DNA of 34,449 nt, taken from Pseudomonadota bacterium. GTDB lineage: Bacteria; Pseudomonadota; Alphaproteobacteria; RF32; CAG-239. The notes under the pieces were generated by a model. The model saw only the letters and a program-made list of their open reading frames with translations, was not told the DNA's origin and did no database searches. The stretch spans positions 1,749 through 36,197 of the forward strand of contig JAUNIW010000005.1 in NCBI GenBank assembly GCA_030523245.1, written 5' to 3'. How positions within the stretch are numbered: the first letter of the stretch is position 1; each line of letters opens with the position of its first letter. This document shows, one piece after another, positions 1 through 8,133 of this stretch. The position numbers and the translations under genes are program-made.

Positions 1-486
1 TTAAAGACGAATCCTGAAAACAACTTGTTATTTGAGAGTTTTTACAGCCGACTGGATAGTATAGAAAAGCGGATAAAAAATTGTGATGATGCTGAAATAA
101 GAACTTGGTGCAAGGAAAAATGGTTTGATTATCTGAGCTCTGTCTTAAATGGACACGATTTTAATATTGACTGGGTTAATAATGCTCGCGGTGGTTTTTA
201 TGCTTGCTATTTTGATTGGGTAAATTGCGGAAATGGTGAGAATTACAAACAAATAGAAATATCTTTTGAGGACGGCGTAACTTCTGAGGTCAAACTCTGC
301 TTTAAGTTTGCCAGTGATAATAAGGAAATAACCCTTAATAGTAAATCTTTAATAAAAGATTTACAGGAAGCAGTTGTAACAAAAGGATATAAAGCGGCTT
401 ATCGTCTGGGAAGAACAACGACCTACGCTTATAAAAAGGCAATAGATATAAAAGATGTCCAAGATTTTATAAACAATGCGTCATAG
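1..486 (+). CDS. Hypothetical protein, N-terminus outside window
   Basis: The reading frame is open from base 1, with no in-frame stop before the TTG at 25, so this is most likely the last 161 residues of a longer protein rather than a gene starting at that TTG. The visible part is a soluble mixed alpha/beta sequence rich in Trp, Asp and Lys. A stretch around the middle (YKQIEISFEDG, then EVKLCFKFA) looks like beta-strands, and the last third is helical. I recognise no family and assign no function. It lies in the integrated element, 46 bp before the coupled operon that starts at 533, so it may belong to the same transcript. Confidence 0.6.
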   Translation, partial: LKTNPENNLLFESFYSRLDSIEKRIKNCDDAEIRTWCKEKWFDYLSSVLNGHDFNIDWVNNARGGFYACYFDWVNCGNGENYKQIEISFEDGVTSEVKLCFKFASDNKEITLNSKSLIKDLQEAVVTKGYKAAYRLGRTTTYAYKKAIDIKDVQDFINNAS

Positions 487-532
487 TTTGACGTAGCTAA
501 AAAGTATAGTTTTTTTGTGAAAGGATGTGAAA

Positions 533-799
533 ATGATTGATTTTATAGAGGATAGTTGTACCGGAAGAATAAATAATTTTCCTCACATTATGCAAGGTGT
601 TTTAAATGTTTCTCTTACTAATGGAAATGGAATAGCTCTTGGCGGATGTTGTTCAGGTGCTGTTCCTGGTTGTGAAATATTAAAGTGTGATAATAGTTAC
701 ATCTATGTTCGCGACAGAAATATGGCGTCTCTTGTTAATGTTTATGATGAAAATGGATATAAAATAAAAGAAATTTCAATCAATGACTTGGATTTGTAA
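533..799 (+). CDS. Small hypothetical protein, paralogue of 1032-1286
   Basis: An 88-residue protein of unknown function. The ATG at 533 is preferred over the in-frame GTG at 527 because AAGGA (521-525) is 7 bases from the ATG but only 1 from the GTG. The C-terminal half follows the pattern EILKxD...IYV...VNVYDENGxKIKEIxIxDL, which recurs almost residue for residue in the protein at 1032-1286 (EIIKFD...IYV...VDIFDEMGVKVKEIDIKDL), so the two are tandem paralogues separated by one small gene. The middle is Gly/Cys-rich (GGCCSG). The pattern suggests a small beta-rich fold, but no family is recognised. It appears to be the first gene of a tightly packed operon running to 2609 in the integrated element. 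Confidence 0.7.
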   Translation: MIDFIEDSCTGRINNFPHIMQGVLNVSLTNGNGIALGGCCSGAVPGCEILKCDNSYIYVRDRNMASLVNVYDENGYKIKEISINDLDL

Positions 800-802
800 A
801 AT

Positions 803-1039
803 ATGAATGATGATATTTTTAAGGCGAAACTGCAAGTATTGGCGGATATGCAACATTCTTTTTATGTTGATTTTATGCCTCTTGTTCAGCAAATCAAAAA
901 AGATATTGCAACCTTAAAAATTGATAAAAAAGACATTCTTACAGTTAATCATATAAATGAAAATCTATCAAAAGCTAATAGCCTTTTAGAATTTCTGAAT
1001 AAACAATCTAATATCACAAAGGATAAAATCAATGATTGA
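803..1039 (+). CDS. Small helical hypothetical protein
   Basis: A 78-residue, Lys/Ile/Leu/Asn-rich and probably all-helical protein with no recognisable family. It begins 3 bp after the stop of the preceding gene, and its last 8 bases overlap the start of the next, which implies translational coupling. It sits between two paralogous small proteins (533-799 and 1032-1286). If those arose by tandem duplication, this gene either was already between them or was inserted later. Function unknown. Confidence 0.65.
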   Translation: MNDDIFKAKLQVLADMQHSFYVDFMPLVQQIKKDIATLKIDKKDILTVNHINENLSKANSLLEFLNKQSNITKDKIND

Positions 1040-1286
1040 ATACCTTAAAGATATGTCCGTTATCGGTTCTAAAATAACAACTTGTCCTTATACGCTTAAA
1101 GGTCCGATTGCTATTGTGCGGAATGGCGGGAAAAATGTGCGTTGCCCTGCGTGGGGTACTGGTCAAGAAATTATTAAGTTTGATAAAGAACATATTTATG
1201 TCAAATCTGATATTGTCGGCATGGTTGATATATTTGATGAAATGGGCGTTAAGGTTAAAGAAATTGATATTAAGGATTTAGGATAA
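1032..1286 (+). CDS. Small hypothetical protein, paralogue of 533-799
   Basis: An 84-residue protein starting MIEYLKDM, related to the 88-residue protein at 533-799. Shared features are the MI(E/D)(Y/F) start, the central EI(I/L)K(F/C)D, IYV(K/R), V(D/N)(I/V)(F/Y)DE.G, and the final KEI.I.DL. It has two Cys-Pro pairs (CPYTL and CPAWG). The start overlaps the preceding gene by 8 bp and the stop TAA shares its last A with the next ATG. No family assigned. Divergence between the copies is large, mainly in the N-terminal half, so the duplication is not recent. Confidence 0.7.
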   Translation: MIEYLKDMSVIGSKITTCPYTLKGPIAIVRNGGKNVRCPAWGTGQEIIKFDKEHIYVKSDIVGMVDIFDEMGVKVKEIDIKDLG

Positions 1287-1648
1287 TGAACACACCGGAA
1301 GAAAATATAAAGAATAAAATTTATCGGATAACGAATAAGGAACAGTTTATTCAGTTAATCAAAGATAATCCCTTATTGCGGATTTTAACCAATGGTGCTG
1401 GTGTATTTGCTTGGAAATATGAGCTTGCCTGTCACGATGATGTTCGGCGGTTGTTTCCTGAAATAACGGACGATTGGACGGGGTACTTGATAGACAACGG
1501 GCGGTTACTCCACTCTGTTAAAATAGATTTTCCTGTAATGGATAGGTTTCTTTGTCAGTGGTTTCCCGATAGTTGTGAACGCGTTGATGAATATAATCGG
1601 CGTGAGGGGTTACAGCTATTCTCTGTAAAGGAAAAATTAAATGGATAA
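1286..1648 (+). CDS. Hypothetical protein of element operon
   Basis: A 120-residue soluble protein of unknown function. It is rich in aromatic and charged residues (WKYELACHDDVRRLFPE, DDWTGYLIDNG, CQWFPDSCERVDEYNRREG). The ATG overlaps the upstream stop by one base and the gene overlaps the DnaB-like gene by 8 bp, so it is probably translationally coupled to that ATPase and may work with it. No transmembrane segment or signal peptide is seen. The identity of the protein is open. Confidence 0.65.
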   Translation: MNTPEENIKNKIYRITNKEQFIQLIKDNPLLRILTNGAGVFAWKYELACHDDVRRLFPEITDDWTGYLIDNGRLLHSVKIDFPVMDRFLCQWFPDSCERVDEYNRREGLQLFSVKEKLNG

Positions 1649-5571: not shown

Positions 5572-6702
5572 CTATTCATTTAATCGGGCAACTGCTTGAC
5601 GTAGTGTTTCATTTGCCAAATGTGAGTAACGTTGTGTCATTGCAATATCAGAATGCCCCAACAATTCTTTTACTTCATAAAGGGAAACTCGCTTTTGAAC
5701 TAATCGGCTTGCGAAAGTGTGCCGCAAAGAATGGAAAACTACCCTTTGTCGACGGTCGGTAATGCCGTCATTTAAGCCCAACGCCTTTACTGCTCTTTCG
5801 AAAGTCCGTGAAACGTGTTCAATCTTGCTTCCTGTTTTACTTTGGAAAACAAATTCGTTTCCCTCGCCTTGTTTGAGTTTAGAAAATTCTTCTGCAACGC
5901 GGTTTGTCATATAGGCAAAACGATTCTTGCCGTTTTTGGTATCACGCAAAAACAACATTTTTTCTTCAAGGCTTACATCTGCCCAAGTTAATTTAAAAAT
6001 TTCTCCGGCACGCAAACCACAATCAGCGGAAATGAGCGCCATTAAATAAACGGAATAACTATGTTTTTTAAGTTCTTCCAGAAGATTGTTTAATTCTTCA
6101 TCTGAAAGAAACTTCATTCGGCGATTATCTTCTTTTTTCAGTTCGTCAAATCTTGCTGCCGGATTATCTCCTGCAAAAAGTTCGTTTCTAATGGCAAAAT
6201 TGAAAACCTGTCGTGTTAATGCAATAGCATAATTCTTTGAGCGATTGGATAAACGTCTTTTATCCATAGGTTGTAACACCCTTATGAGGCTAATGCGGCT
6301 AATGAGGTTCAACTTAACACCGCCCAAAACAGGCTTTAACCACTTTTTATATAAATGGACTTCCCTGTCATAGGTTGATTTTCTATCTTTATTTTGAATA
6401 TGAGGTTGGTAATATTCTTCAAAAAGCTCTGAGAACGTCATATTTGCCGCCTCATTTGCTATTTTCTCCTGCTCGCGTTGTTCGGTTTTCTCTCTTAAAG
6501 AAAGTGCTCTACCAGTTTTTATATCGCGTTTTAATTCGCTTAAAATTTCATAAGCCTGAGCTGCTGTAAATCCTTCCGATTTATAGCCGATGCTTTCTTC
6601 ATACTGTTTACCGTTCCGCGTATAGCGAATAGAAAAATAAACATCTTTTTTATTATTACGGATACATTCTTTTGTGCGTACCCCTGGAAAACTTTTAACC
6701 AT
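5572..6702 (-). CDS. int: Tyrosine recombinase / phage-type integrase
   Basis: A 376-residue integrase that should recombine the element's attP with the chromosomal att site. The N-terminal arm-binding type domain (about 1-70) is followed by a SAM-like core-binding domain (about 88-185) and the catalytic domain. Catalytic residues are visible in order: Arg231 (GLRAGEI), Lys256 (TKNGK), His324-x-x-Arg327 (HSLRH), His350 (LLGHSD) and the nucleophile Tyr359 (QRYSHL). All are present, so the enzyme is probably active. The start has GGAG 9 bases upstream. It lies about 170 bp from the disrupted tRNA-Trp, reading away from it, so the host tRNA promoter at 6952-6980 points into this gene. It is the outermost gene on this side of the element. 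Confidence 0.93.
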   Translation of the reverse strand: MVKSFPGVRTKECIRNNKKDVYFSIRYTRNGKQYEESIGYKSEGFTAAQAYEILSELKRDIKTGRALSLREKTEQREQEKIANEAANMTFSELFEEYYQPHIQNKDRKSTYDREVHLYKKWLKPVLGGVKLNLISRISLIRVLQPMDKRRLSNRSKNYAIALTRQVFNFAIRNELFAGDNPAARFDELKKEDNRRMKFLSDEELNNLLEELKKHSYSVYLMALISADCGLRAGEIFKLTWADVSLEEKMLFLRDTKNGKNRFAYMTNRVAEEFSKLKQGEGNEFVFQSKTGSKIEHVSRTFERAVKALGLNDGITDRRQRVVFHSLRHTFASRLVQKRVSLYEVKELLGHSDIAMTQRYSHLANETLRQAVARLNE

Positions 6703-6770
6703 TTTCTAAAACTCCGTATCGTTGTTTTCATAACCCTGTATACTACCCAAAAAGTTAGAAAAAACGAGTG

Positions 6771-6797
6771 CGCCTAGGTACGCCTAAGTACGCCAAG
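6771..6797. repeat. Three 10-bp direct repeats near att site (candidate integrase arm sites)
   Basis: CGCCTAGGTA, CGCCTAAGTA and CGCCAAG(CAA) follow each other with an exact 10-bp period, one helical turn, in the integrase leader and about 80 bp from the tRNA junction. Tandem helically phased sites in this position fit arm-type integrase or excisionase binding sites. The sequence shows the repeats; the role is inferred. Confidence 0.55.
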
Positions 6798-6816
6798 CAA
6801 AAAAAATTTTTTGCTT
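6795..6816. repeat. Perfect inverted repeat beside the direct repeats
   Basis: AAGC followed by eight A, six T and GCTT: a 10-bp inverted repeat with a 2-base centre. There is no T-tail beyond it on either strand, so it is not a standard terminator. It may be a bent A-tract bound by a host factor, a cruciform, or a recombination accessory site. Confidence 0.4.
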
Positions 6817-6875
6817 AAACGTATTGAAAAATCAATAAAAATGTAGGAAATTTAAATACTTGAAAAAATCAATTT

Positions 6876-6892
6876 GGGGTTTTGGAGACCGA
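6876..6892. other. Candidate attachment-site core (att) in the tRNA-Trp anticodon arm
   Basis: The tRNA identity stops at 6878, right after the anticodon loop, a common crossover point for tyrosine integrases. The core therefore probably lies within the anticodon stem-loop (6876-6892). The second copy of the repeat should be at the element's far end, outside the window, so the exact limits cannot be set here. Confidence 0.5.
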
Positions 6893-6918
6893 TGCTCTAC
6901 CAACTGAGCTATACCCCT
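6878..6918 (-). pseudogene. 5' half of tRNA-Trp(CCA), cut in the anticodon stem
   Basis: Reading the - strand, AGGGGTA (acceptor arm), the D arm GCTC-AGTTGGTAG-GAGC and the anticodon arm TCGGT-CTCCAAA-ACC can be traced as tRNA positions 1 to 41, with anticodon CCA (Trp). Position 42 should pair with the anticodon stem, but the sequence changes to CCAAATTGATT and no variable loop, T arm or 3' acceptor strand follows. The rest of the gene must be at the other end of the element or elsewhere. This marks the boundary between element (left) and chromosome (right). Confidence 0.8.
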
Positions 6919-6951
6919 ATAAAGATAGAGAATAAATCAATATCCTGATAC

Positions 6952-6980
6952 TTGATACACATTTCTTTAGAATAAATCAA
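6952..6980 (-). promoter_or_regulatory. Sigma-70-like promoter of the split tRNA-Trp
   Basis: On the - strand TTGATT (6975-6980), a 17-bp spacer and TATCAA (6952-6957). The -35 box is part of a 12-bp direct repeat AGAATAAATCAA (+ strand, 6929-6940 and 6969-6980). With the tRNA truncated, this promoter reads into the element's end and towards the integrase. Confidence 0.5.
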
Positions 6981-7032
6981 GCATTTTTTTCAGATTATTT
7001 GTTTTTTTCATAAGATTTATTCTCGTATCTTG

Positions 7033-8133
7033 TTATATAAACGGTAACGGGTAAATGGTGCCGCCGTCTTTAACCAGACGACCTTCGTCTCTGTCCAGTT
7101 TGTAGTCTGAATCAATTCCTAAATTTTTGTCGTAGATATCGGCATAACTTCCTAATAAAGAAAGAACTTCTTTAACCCAGTTCGGTTTGGCTTTCAAATC
7201 TGTCCACAACTGCGGTTCGTCTCCTAACAAATTTCTTATTTCAGGATTATCATTTGTGGTATAAAATTCCAGATTTTGTACATTGATATCATATTGTTCA
7301 GCCAGAAAGAGGGCATTCAGTATCCATTTCAATGCCAGCTGTAATTCGGCATTGTCTTTTTGAACATAAGCATATACGGGATGTAAAGCAATTTTATGCG
7401 GCAGGACTTTTGCGTTGGCACTCGGTAAATCTTTCAGAATGCCGTTCAGCATCAGGCCGCTTGCCGTCATCATCTGGCAGCGGTTAAGCAGGAAAGCTTC
7501 CCGAGCTTCCCGCAGTGTACCGAAAGTTAAATATTTCAGTCCCAAGTTATAGCGCATATTGTAATCATCAAAATTTTTATAATAGTCCGAATCTGTTGAT
7601 AAACAAATTTTTTTACCGCGGTAATTTTCCAAATCATCGGAATCATCCGCATGAACCATAAGCATTTGGTGGTCATAATAAAGAAAACCTGCGTTTAATG
7701 CCTGTCGGGATGTTTCTGTTTTGGCCGAATAGGCACCGCCGCTCAGCATCACATCAATTTTATTTTCGTTCAGAGCACGCGCCATATTTTTTTGCGAAAC
7801 ATTGACCATTTGGATTTTTTTGTTATCACCCAAAAGGGCCTGAGCAAAGACCCGACATAAATCGGCATCAATGCCGCTCCATACACCGTCTTCCTTATGG
7901 GCATAGGACTTTACGCTTAAATCACTGCCGCAGCGTATTTTGTTGTTCCAGACCATTTGTTCAATGGGACTGCGTTTTATCTGAGCCTGAACAGCCAGCG
8001 GATGATTATAAACAGGCTGTTGGTAATAAGCCGGTGACTGAAATTGCGTTATTGTCTGTGTTTGAGCGGAAGTTGTCCAGCAAATCACAAATAACATACC
8101 AAATATTGAAAATATTTTCATCTTTTTAACCAT
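7033..8133 (-). CDS. AapJ/BztA-like periplasmic amino-acid-binding protein
   Basis: A 366-residue exported solute-binding protein resembling the general L-amino-acid binding proteins of alphaproteobacteria. The N-terminal signal peptide (KKMKIFSIFGMLFVICWTTSAQ) is given in two parts: a basic KKMK start, then FSIFGMLFVICWTTSAQ. The mature part carries NKIRCGSDLS, GVWSGIDADLCRVFAQALLGD (that is, GVWSGIDADL then CRVFAQALLGD), REAFLLNRCQMMTASGLML and the ending GGTIYPLPFI, all at family positions. The family normally feeds an AapQMP ABC permease, but no permease or ATPase gene is nearby, so this is an orphan receptor or uses a distant transporter. The first ATG (8133) and one four codons later (8121) are both possible, and neither has a strong Shine-Dalgarno. 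It diverges from the mlaC-like gene. Confidence 0.8.
   Translation of the reverse strand: MVKKMKIFSIFGMLFVICWTTSAQTQTITQFQSPAYYQQPVYNHPLAVQAQIKRSPIEQMVWNNKIRCGSDLSVKSYAHKEDGVWSGIDADLCRVFAQALLGDNKKIQMVNVSQKNMARALNENKIDVMLSGGAYSAKTETSRQALNAGFLYYDHQMLMVHADDSDDLENYRGKKICLSTDSDYYKNFDDYNMRYNLGLKYLTFGTLREAREAFLLNRCQMMTASGLMLNGILKDLPSANAKVLPHKIALHPVYAYVQKDNAELQLALKWILNALFLAEQYDINVQNLEFYTTNDNPEIRNLLGDEPQLWTDLKAKPNWVKEVLSLLGSYADIYDKNLGIDSDYKLDRDEGRLVKDGGTIYPLPFI

Follow-up and report, generated by a model that had tools for sequence, protein, structure and literature searches.

Introduction

In the usual islands that target the anticodon loop (Islander, PMC4383910), a tyrosine integrase is accompanied by a direct repeat bounded by that loop, with the tRNA gene at one end of the element and a fragment of it at the other; these islands displace a 3' fragment and leave the gene with its native promoter. 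Targeting of the 5' region is described as considerably rarer, or as seldom met with in bacteria, yet it is known (PMC6563490, PMC8371274), and with very few exceptions a bacterial tRNA keeps its original promoter (PMC8371274). One reversed-orientation element (Zhao & Williams 2002, J Bacteriol 184:859, as cited in PMC6563490) recombines, according to that citation, with the 5' region of a tRNA gene and supplies its 5' end. The nearest analogue of the locus described here is provided by the pTN3-like archaeal elements (PMC8371274), in which the 5' half of a tRNA gene serves as attB, the element carries a 5' half of its own, and the restored tRNA is expressed from a promoter otherwise serving the integrase.

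The element analysed in this study shares with the usual islands the tyrosine integrase, the anticodon-loop-bounded repeat and the arrangement of gene and fragment at opposite ends, but it is the 5' fragment that is displaced and the promoter that is replaced. In the suicide integration of pTN3-like/SSV-type elements att lies inside the integrase gene (int), which is split, whereas here att lies outside an intact int. From the element of Zhao & Williams, as far as the citing paper describes it, the present one differs in its target (the anticodon loop of tRNA-Trp), in its hosts (rumen/gut alphaproteobacteria) and in having sister elements of the usual polarity. The initial annotation of this DNA had called such a polarity unusual, which is right; precedents have been published, and the element therefore belongs to a known, rare kind.

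The two ends of the element

The window (the whole stretch of DNA analysed, 34,449 nt; C26:1749-36197) originates from genome G000 (1.45 Mb, 97 contigs, 98% complete), which is that of a gut-type alphaproteobacterium. The locus is best explained, with a probability of about 0.93, as an 8.1-kb integrative element inserted in the genome's only tRNA-Trp gene with reversed target polarity, i.e. with a promoter and a 5' half of the tRNA gene brought in by the element. The identified features are listed in Table 1.

Table 1. Coordinates of the features identified at the tRNA-Trp locus of G000 (window positions unless prefixed by C26)
Feature	Position	Strand	Basis
Small element genes and 3' part of a PDDEXK_4-family nuclease gene	1..1648	(+)	nuclease gene extends left of the window over a 10-N gap
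DnaB-like helicase domain protein, 322 aa	1641..2609	(+)	domain matches
PrimPol + DUF3987 replication protein, 781 aa	2654..4999	(-)	domain matches
Element gene directly downstream of int, 133 aa	5017..5418	(-)	only a sub-threshold DUF4041 match
Tyrosine integrase, 376 aa, intact	5572..6702	(-)	Phage_integrase 1.1e-33; phrog_1 9.5e-70; no internal stop
Candidate arm-type sites in int, GGCTAATG(A/C)G repeats	6281..6329	(-)	inverted relative to copy C26:774-822 near the far end
att arm next to int, with the int leader; core CTCCAAAACC, then CCAAATTGATTTTT	6703..6877	(-)	alignment of 10 tRNA-Trp elements
Attachment junction on the int side: displaced (lone) tRNA-Trp 5' half, which stops in the anticodon stem	6878..6918	(-)	identity to C26:473-548
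Native chromosomal tRNA-Trp promoter TTGATT-17 nt-TATCAA, cut off from its tRNA and facing via the 5' half into int	6952..6980	(-)	layout
Family-3 solute-binding protein (SBP) gene; chromosomal flank, upstream neighbour of tRNA-Trp	7033..8133	(-)	homologue beside tRNA-Trp in G113, G126
Predicted element-borne tRNA-Trp promoter	C26:564-592	-	predicted from conserved layout

At the int end, the lone half reads AGGGGTATAGCTCAGTTGGTAGAGCATCGGTCTCCAAAACC, followed by CCAAATTGATTTTT, and corresponds to tRNA-Trp positions 1-41, with 100% identity to the 5' half of a complete gene on the same contig; beyond position 41 (at 6878) there is an abrupt change to AT-rich element DNA. ARAGORN called no tRNA at 6878-6918, and a permissive search with the Rfam model gave 24.8 bits there, under the 29-bit cut-off. 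The displaced fragment thus consists of positions 1-41 with a native-type promoter, as opposed to the 3' fragment left by the usual islands. The earlier description of this site (an intact tRNA-Trp 1-41 with a promoter, then element DNA) is borne out by the sequence, by the ARAGORN/Rfam comparison and by the upstream promoter layout.

The complete tRNA-Trp (CCA), called by both ARAGORN and Rfam, lies outside the window, 1.2 kb to its left (C26:473-548). The two 5'-half copies enclose int, are separated by 8,118 bp and form a 46-bp direct repeat of 98% identity (lone half versus C26:508-553), which is not due to chance, because its E value in a whole-genome search was 1.7e-16. The repeat is part of a tRNA gene at both ends of the element, and the full gene is present at one end only. 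The initial annotation had correctly stated that the tRNA is not restored at the lone half; restoration is found at the element's other end. Of the two explanations offered there, the first, an element-borne 5' half and promoter joined to the chromosomal 3' half, matches what we observed at C26:473-592, and the second copy of the core joined to a tRNA-Trp 3' half, which was to be sought left of the window, lies in the complete gene. The second explanation, another tRNA-Trp gene, is excluded for the present assembly (98% complete): the genome-wide tRNA search detected a single complete tRNA-Trp, and the remaining query matches were the lone half and a partial match to tRNA-Met.

Since a 10-N gap separates the two tRNA copies and the assembly is in 97 contigs, the copies might have been wrongly placed on one scaffold. 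This is very improbable: the gap (C26:1739-1748) is internal to the element and is spanned, at 89-97% identity, by homologous contigs from G001, G020 and G049, and the complete layout with both ends is repeated in G001, G020, G042 and G078.

We consider it extremely improbable that the element was inserted with the usual polarity, that an element-borne 3' half once present beside int has decayed and that a separate tRNA-Trp gene is the working one. Most tRNA-targeting elements do restore the gene at the promoter end, and a different integrase does so in the tRNA-Trp gene of G102, which has a lone 3' half. The sole complete tRNA-Trp of G000, however, is found precisely at the element's opposite end, with the same 5' half; the int-side sequence past position 41 is att-arm DNA conserved in ten genomes and contains no decayed 3' half; and the two-ended anatomy, conserved in five genomes, refutes this explanation. 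Equally remote is the notion that the DNA right of 6918 is what moved and that the int segment belongs to the resident chromosome, for although the DNA right of the lone half differs from that beside the complete gene, it carries the SBP gene, found beside intact tRNA-Trp in element-free members of the genus, and the glutamyl- and cysteinyl-tRNA synthetase genes, while the int, primase and helicase genes that move between genera lie left of the half.

Chromosomal flanks and the unoccupied site

To the right of the lone half the SBP gene is followed by the two aminoacyl-tRNA synthetase genes. In G113 and G126 (same genus), in which the search detected no integrases of this family, a 57-59% identical SBP gene is located immediately upstream of an intact tRNA-Trp. 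These genomes represent the unoccupied site that the initial annotation had proposed to look for in related strains, and the int end therefore retains the native promoter together with the 5' half that was displaced. The downstream flank of the tRNA-Trp site gave no match in G113 and G126; the left chromosomal flank on C26 amounts to just 472 bp.

In one genus (loci L077-L084) the immediate upstream neighbour of tRNA-Trp varies (SBP gene, secF-like gene and others), and a 60-80-bp promoter block is common to several of these loci despite their differing neighbours. It seems that either tRNA-Trp or its promoter changes neighbourhood.

Gene content of the element

The element encodes a tyrosine integrase, a PrimPol-DUF3987 protein, a DnaB-like helicase and a PDDEXK_4-family nuclease, together with several small genes. 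The int gene begins about 175 nt from the att junction and is open over 376 codons, i.e. it is not split by integration. The int-proximal att arm contains, in the alignment of 10 tRNA-Trp elements, a AAGCAAAAAATTTTTTTTGCTT palindrome and direct repeats of the TACGCCTA(A/G)G type. A second repeat, GGCTAATG(A/C)G, occurs in inverted orientation at the two ends of the element (49 nt within int, 80% complementary to the copy near the far end); in both the tRNA-Trp and the tRNA-His elements (see below) the motif is about equally far from the core, and these repeats are candidate arm-type sites of the integrase.

No contig carrying an attP junction or excised circle was found; the sole match among viral contigs was a distant integrase (27% identity). 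In the phage and plasmid collections and the viral contigs there was no close relative among the matches listed, beside which two plasmid records showed 60-80% identity.

Proposed mechanism of integration

The following model of integration and excision is based on the comparison of junctions. The circular element would carry a tRNA-type promoter and tRNA-Trp 1-41 upstream of int and in the same orientation, as one side of attP, which would read: element promoter, 41-nt 5' half, CCAAATTG. The integrase would recombine the anticodon-loop segment CGGT-CTCCAAA-ACC, the probable place of crossover, with the identical segment of the chromosomal gene. The promoter and 5' half of the element would thereby be joined to the chromosomal 3' half, yielding a full tRNA-Trp at the far end, and the host promoter and 5' half would stay at the int end, reading toward int. 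In the circle a promoter and a half gene would lie upstream of int, and in the integrated form a search for intrinsic terminators between the lone 5' half and int detected none; integration would therefore swap promoters between int and tRNA-Trp.

Promoters of the split gene

On the forward strand the native promoter reads TTGATA (6952-6957), 17 nt, AATCAA (6975-6980), a sigma-70-like arrangement whose layout matches that upstream of the complete tRNA-Trp in the element-free genomes G126 and G113. The usual layout before tRNA-Trp in this taxonomic family is TTGATT, 17 nt and a TAT-type -10 hexamer, and every element far end observed carries TTGATT-17-TATAAA/TATAAG followed by the tRNA. A consensus promoter scan gave nothing above shuffle level at either site of G000, because its hexamer rule is stricter than the motif seen; the case for both promoters thus rests on conservation. 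The host tRNA-Trp would accordingly be transcribed from the element-borne promoter.

In some element-free genomes (e.g. G122 and G103) the tRNA-Trp promoters match the last 60-80 bp of the element far ends, and the sequence beyond is unrelated. This indicates a common ancestry of element cassette and host promoters, with which transfer in either direction would fit: the host promoters may be the source of the cassette, or may be scars of lost elements. In G030 tRNA-Trp is directly preceded by a far-end remnant of about 2 kb, promoter included (L117:4529-6551, G030:C5), and neither an int of this family nor a lone 5' half was found in the data for this genome. G030 evidently holds a relic without int, whose promoter presumably still supplies tRNA-Trp.

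Distribution of the element family

The lone 5' half was present, with 100% identity, in 10 of the 152 genomes of the taxonomic family. In G000, G001, G020, G042 and G078 a single contig covers both ends, and the far end carries the complete tRNA-Trp; the int-side junction was identified in G012, G043, G049, G053 and G063 (in G049 the far end is on a separate contig). In all of them, the alignment of the tRNA-Trp elements shows that element identity goes no further than tRNA position 41. Identity among the integrases is 82-97% over five genera, which indicates mobility and would fit horizontal movement. Named records with related integrases belong to uncultured Alphaproteobacteria, in part from the rumen.

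The copies in G063 (L019) and G053 (L028) at first looked like tandem or circular forms, owing to int-side promoters similar to the far ends of elements. This was rejected, as the upstream genes look chromosomal (the translations read as S66-peptidase-like in both genomes and as EF-Tu in G053); both are evidently chromosomal sites with a similar native promoter.

Two loci deviate from this pattern. At L027 (about 6250-7552), which is probably the G317 locus, the partner of the int-side end is an mfd-like ORF in place of tRNA-Trp, with the junction at AAAACCCC, and int is frameshifted; this is possibly a secondary site or an assembly chimera, and the locus, with its frameshifted int and single end, was left out of the second tree. 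In G004 (L076:2343-2518, G004:C29) the anticodon loop of tRNA-Trp is interrupted by about 90 bp containing NN, which is likely to be a scaffolded-over insertion.

Target polarity in related elements

The nearest relatives outside the tRNA-Trp group are two elements in tRNA-His, in G019 (L105, integrase 70% identical) and G005 (L106, 66%). They have the usual polarity, with a reverse-complemented 3' half on the int side and a complete tRNA-His at the far end. The tRNA-Trp and tRNA-His elements share the far-end backbone GTGTGGGGCAAA...CTAATGAGGCTAA...GAGG...ACATTGTGAATAGGTAT, and in both, int contains inverted copies of the far-end repeats, the putative arm-type sites, with a comparable spacing from the core. 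The sole difference lies in the last 100-200 bp: the far end supplies a promoter and a 5' half in the tRNA-Trp elements, and a terminator-like hairpin and a 3' half in the tRNA-His elements. The difference being confined to the terminal cassette, the layout from attP to int has been kept and the tRNA gene flipped, a likely reason being that the inner anticodon stem has the sequence GGT-N7-ACC on either strand. Integrases at 40-44% identity likewise have an int-side 3' half, in genes read as tRNA-Arg, -Met, -Leu, -Thr and -Lys.

The integrase tree fits a tRNA-His clade either beside or inside the tRNA-Trp group (a tree with the tRNA-Trp elements held together was not rejected; AU p 0.416), and so leaves the polarity switch without a direction. 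On balance, we favour the view that one element family switched its target polarity by swapping just the terminal att cassette, as the GGT-N7-ACC symmetry would permit, and that the host is left dependent on the element promoter, a dependence that would persist after decay of the element, as in G030. In the literature searched, which covered Zhao & Williams (2002) through its citation, we found no description of such a within-family contrast in polarity or of a relic like that in G030.

Elements of reversed polarity would take over the transcription of an essential and, in this case, single-copy tRNA gene, whereas almost all others preserve the host promoter. The occurrence of close relatives of both polarities in one bacterial family makes the determinant of polarity (integrase, core sequence or captured cassette) directly testable, as well as the effect of promoter takeover on element stability.

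Two further loci were noted. In G102 (L120:6012-7322, G102:C35) a different tyrosine integrase lies next to a lone 3' half of tRNA-Trp; judging from this arrangement, it is a usual-polarity insertion into tRNA-Trp by an unrelated element. In G105, which has a complete tRNA-Thr beside int and was left out of the polarity scoring, two distant integrase copies (L113 and L114, G105:C42), 39% identical to the query and with the same score, are situated 42 kb apart on a single contig in identical flanks, and each adjoins a complete tRNA-Thr (CGT).
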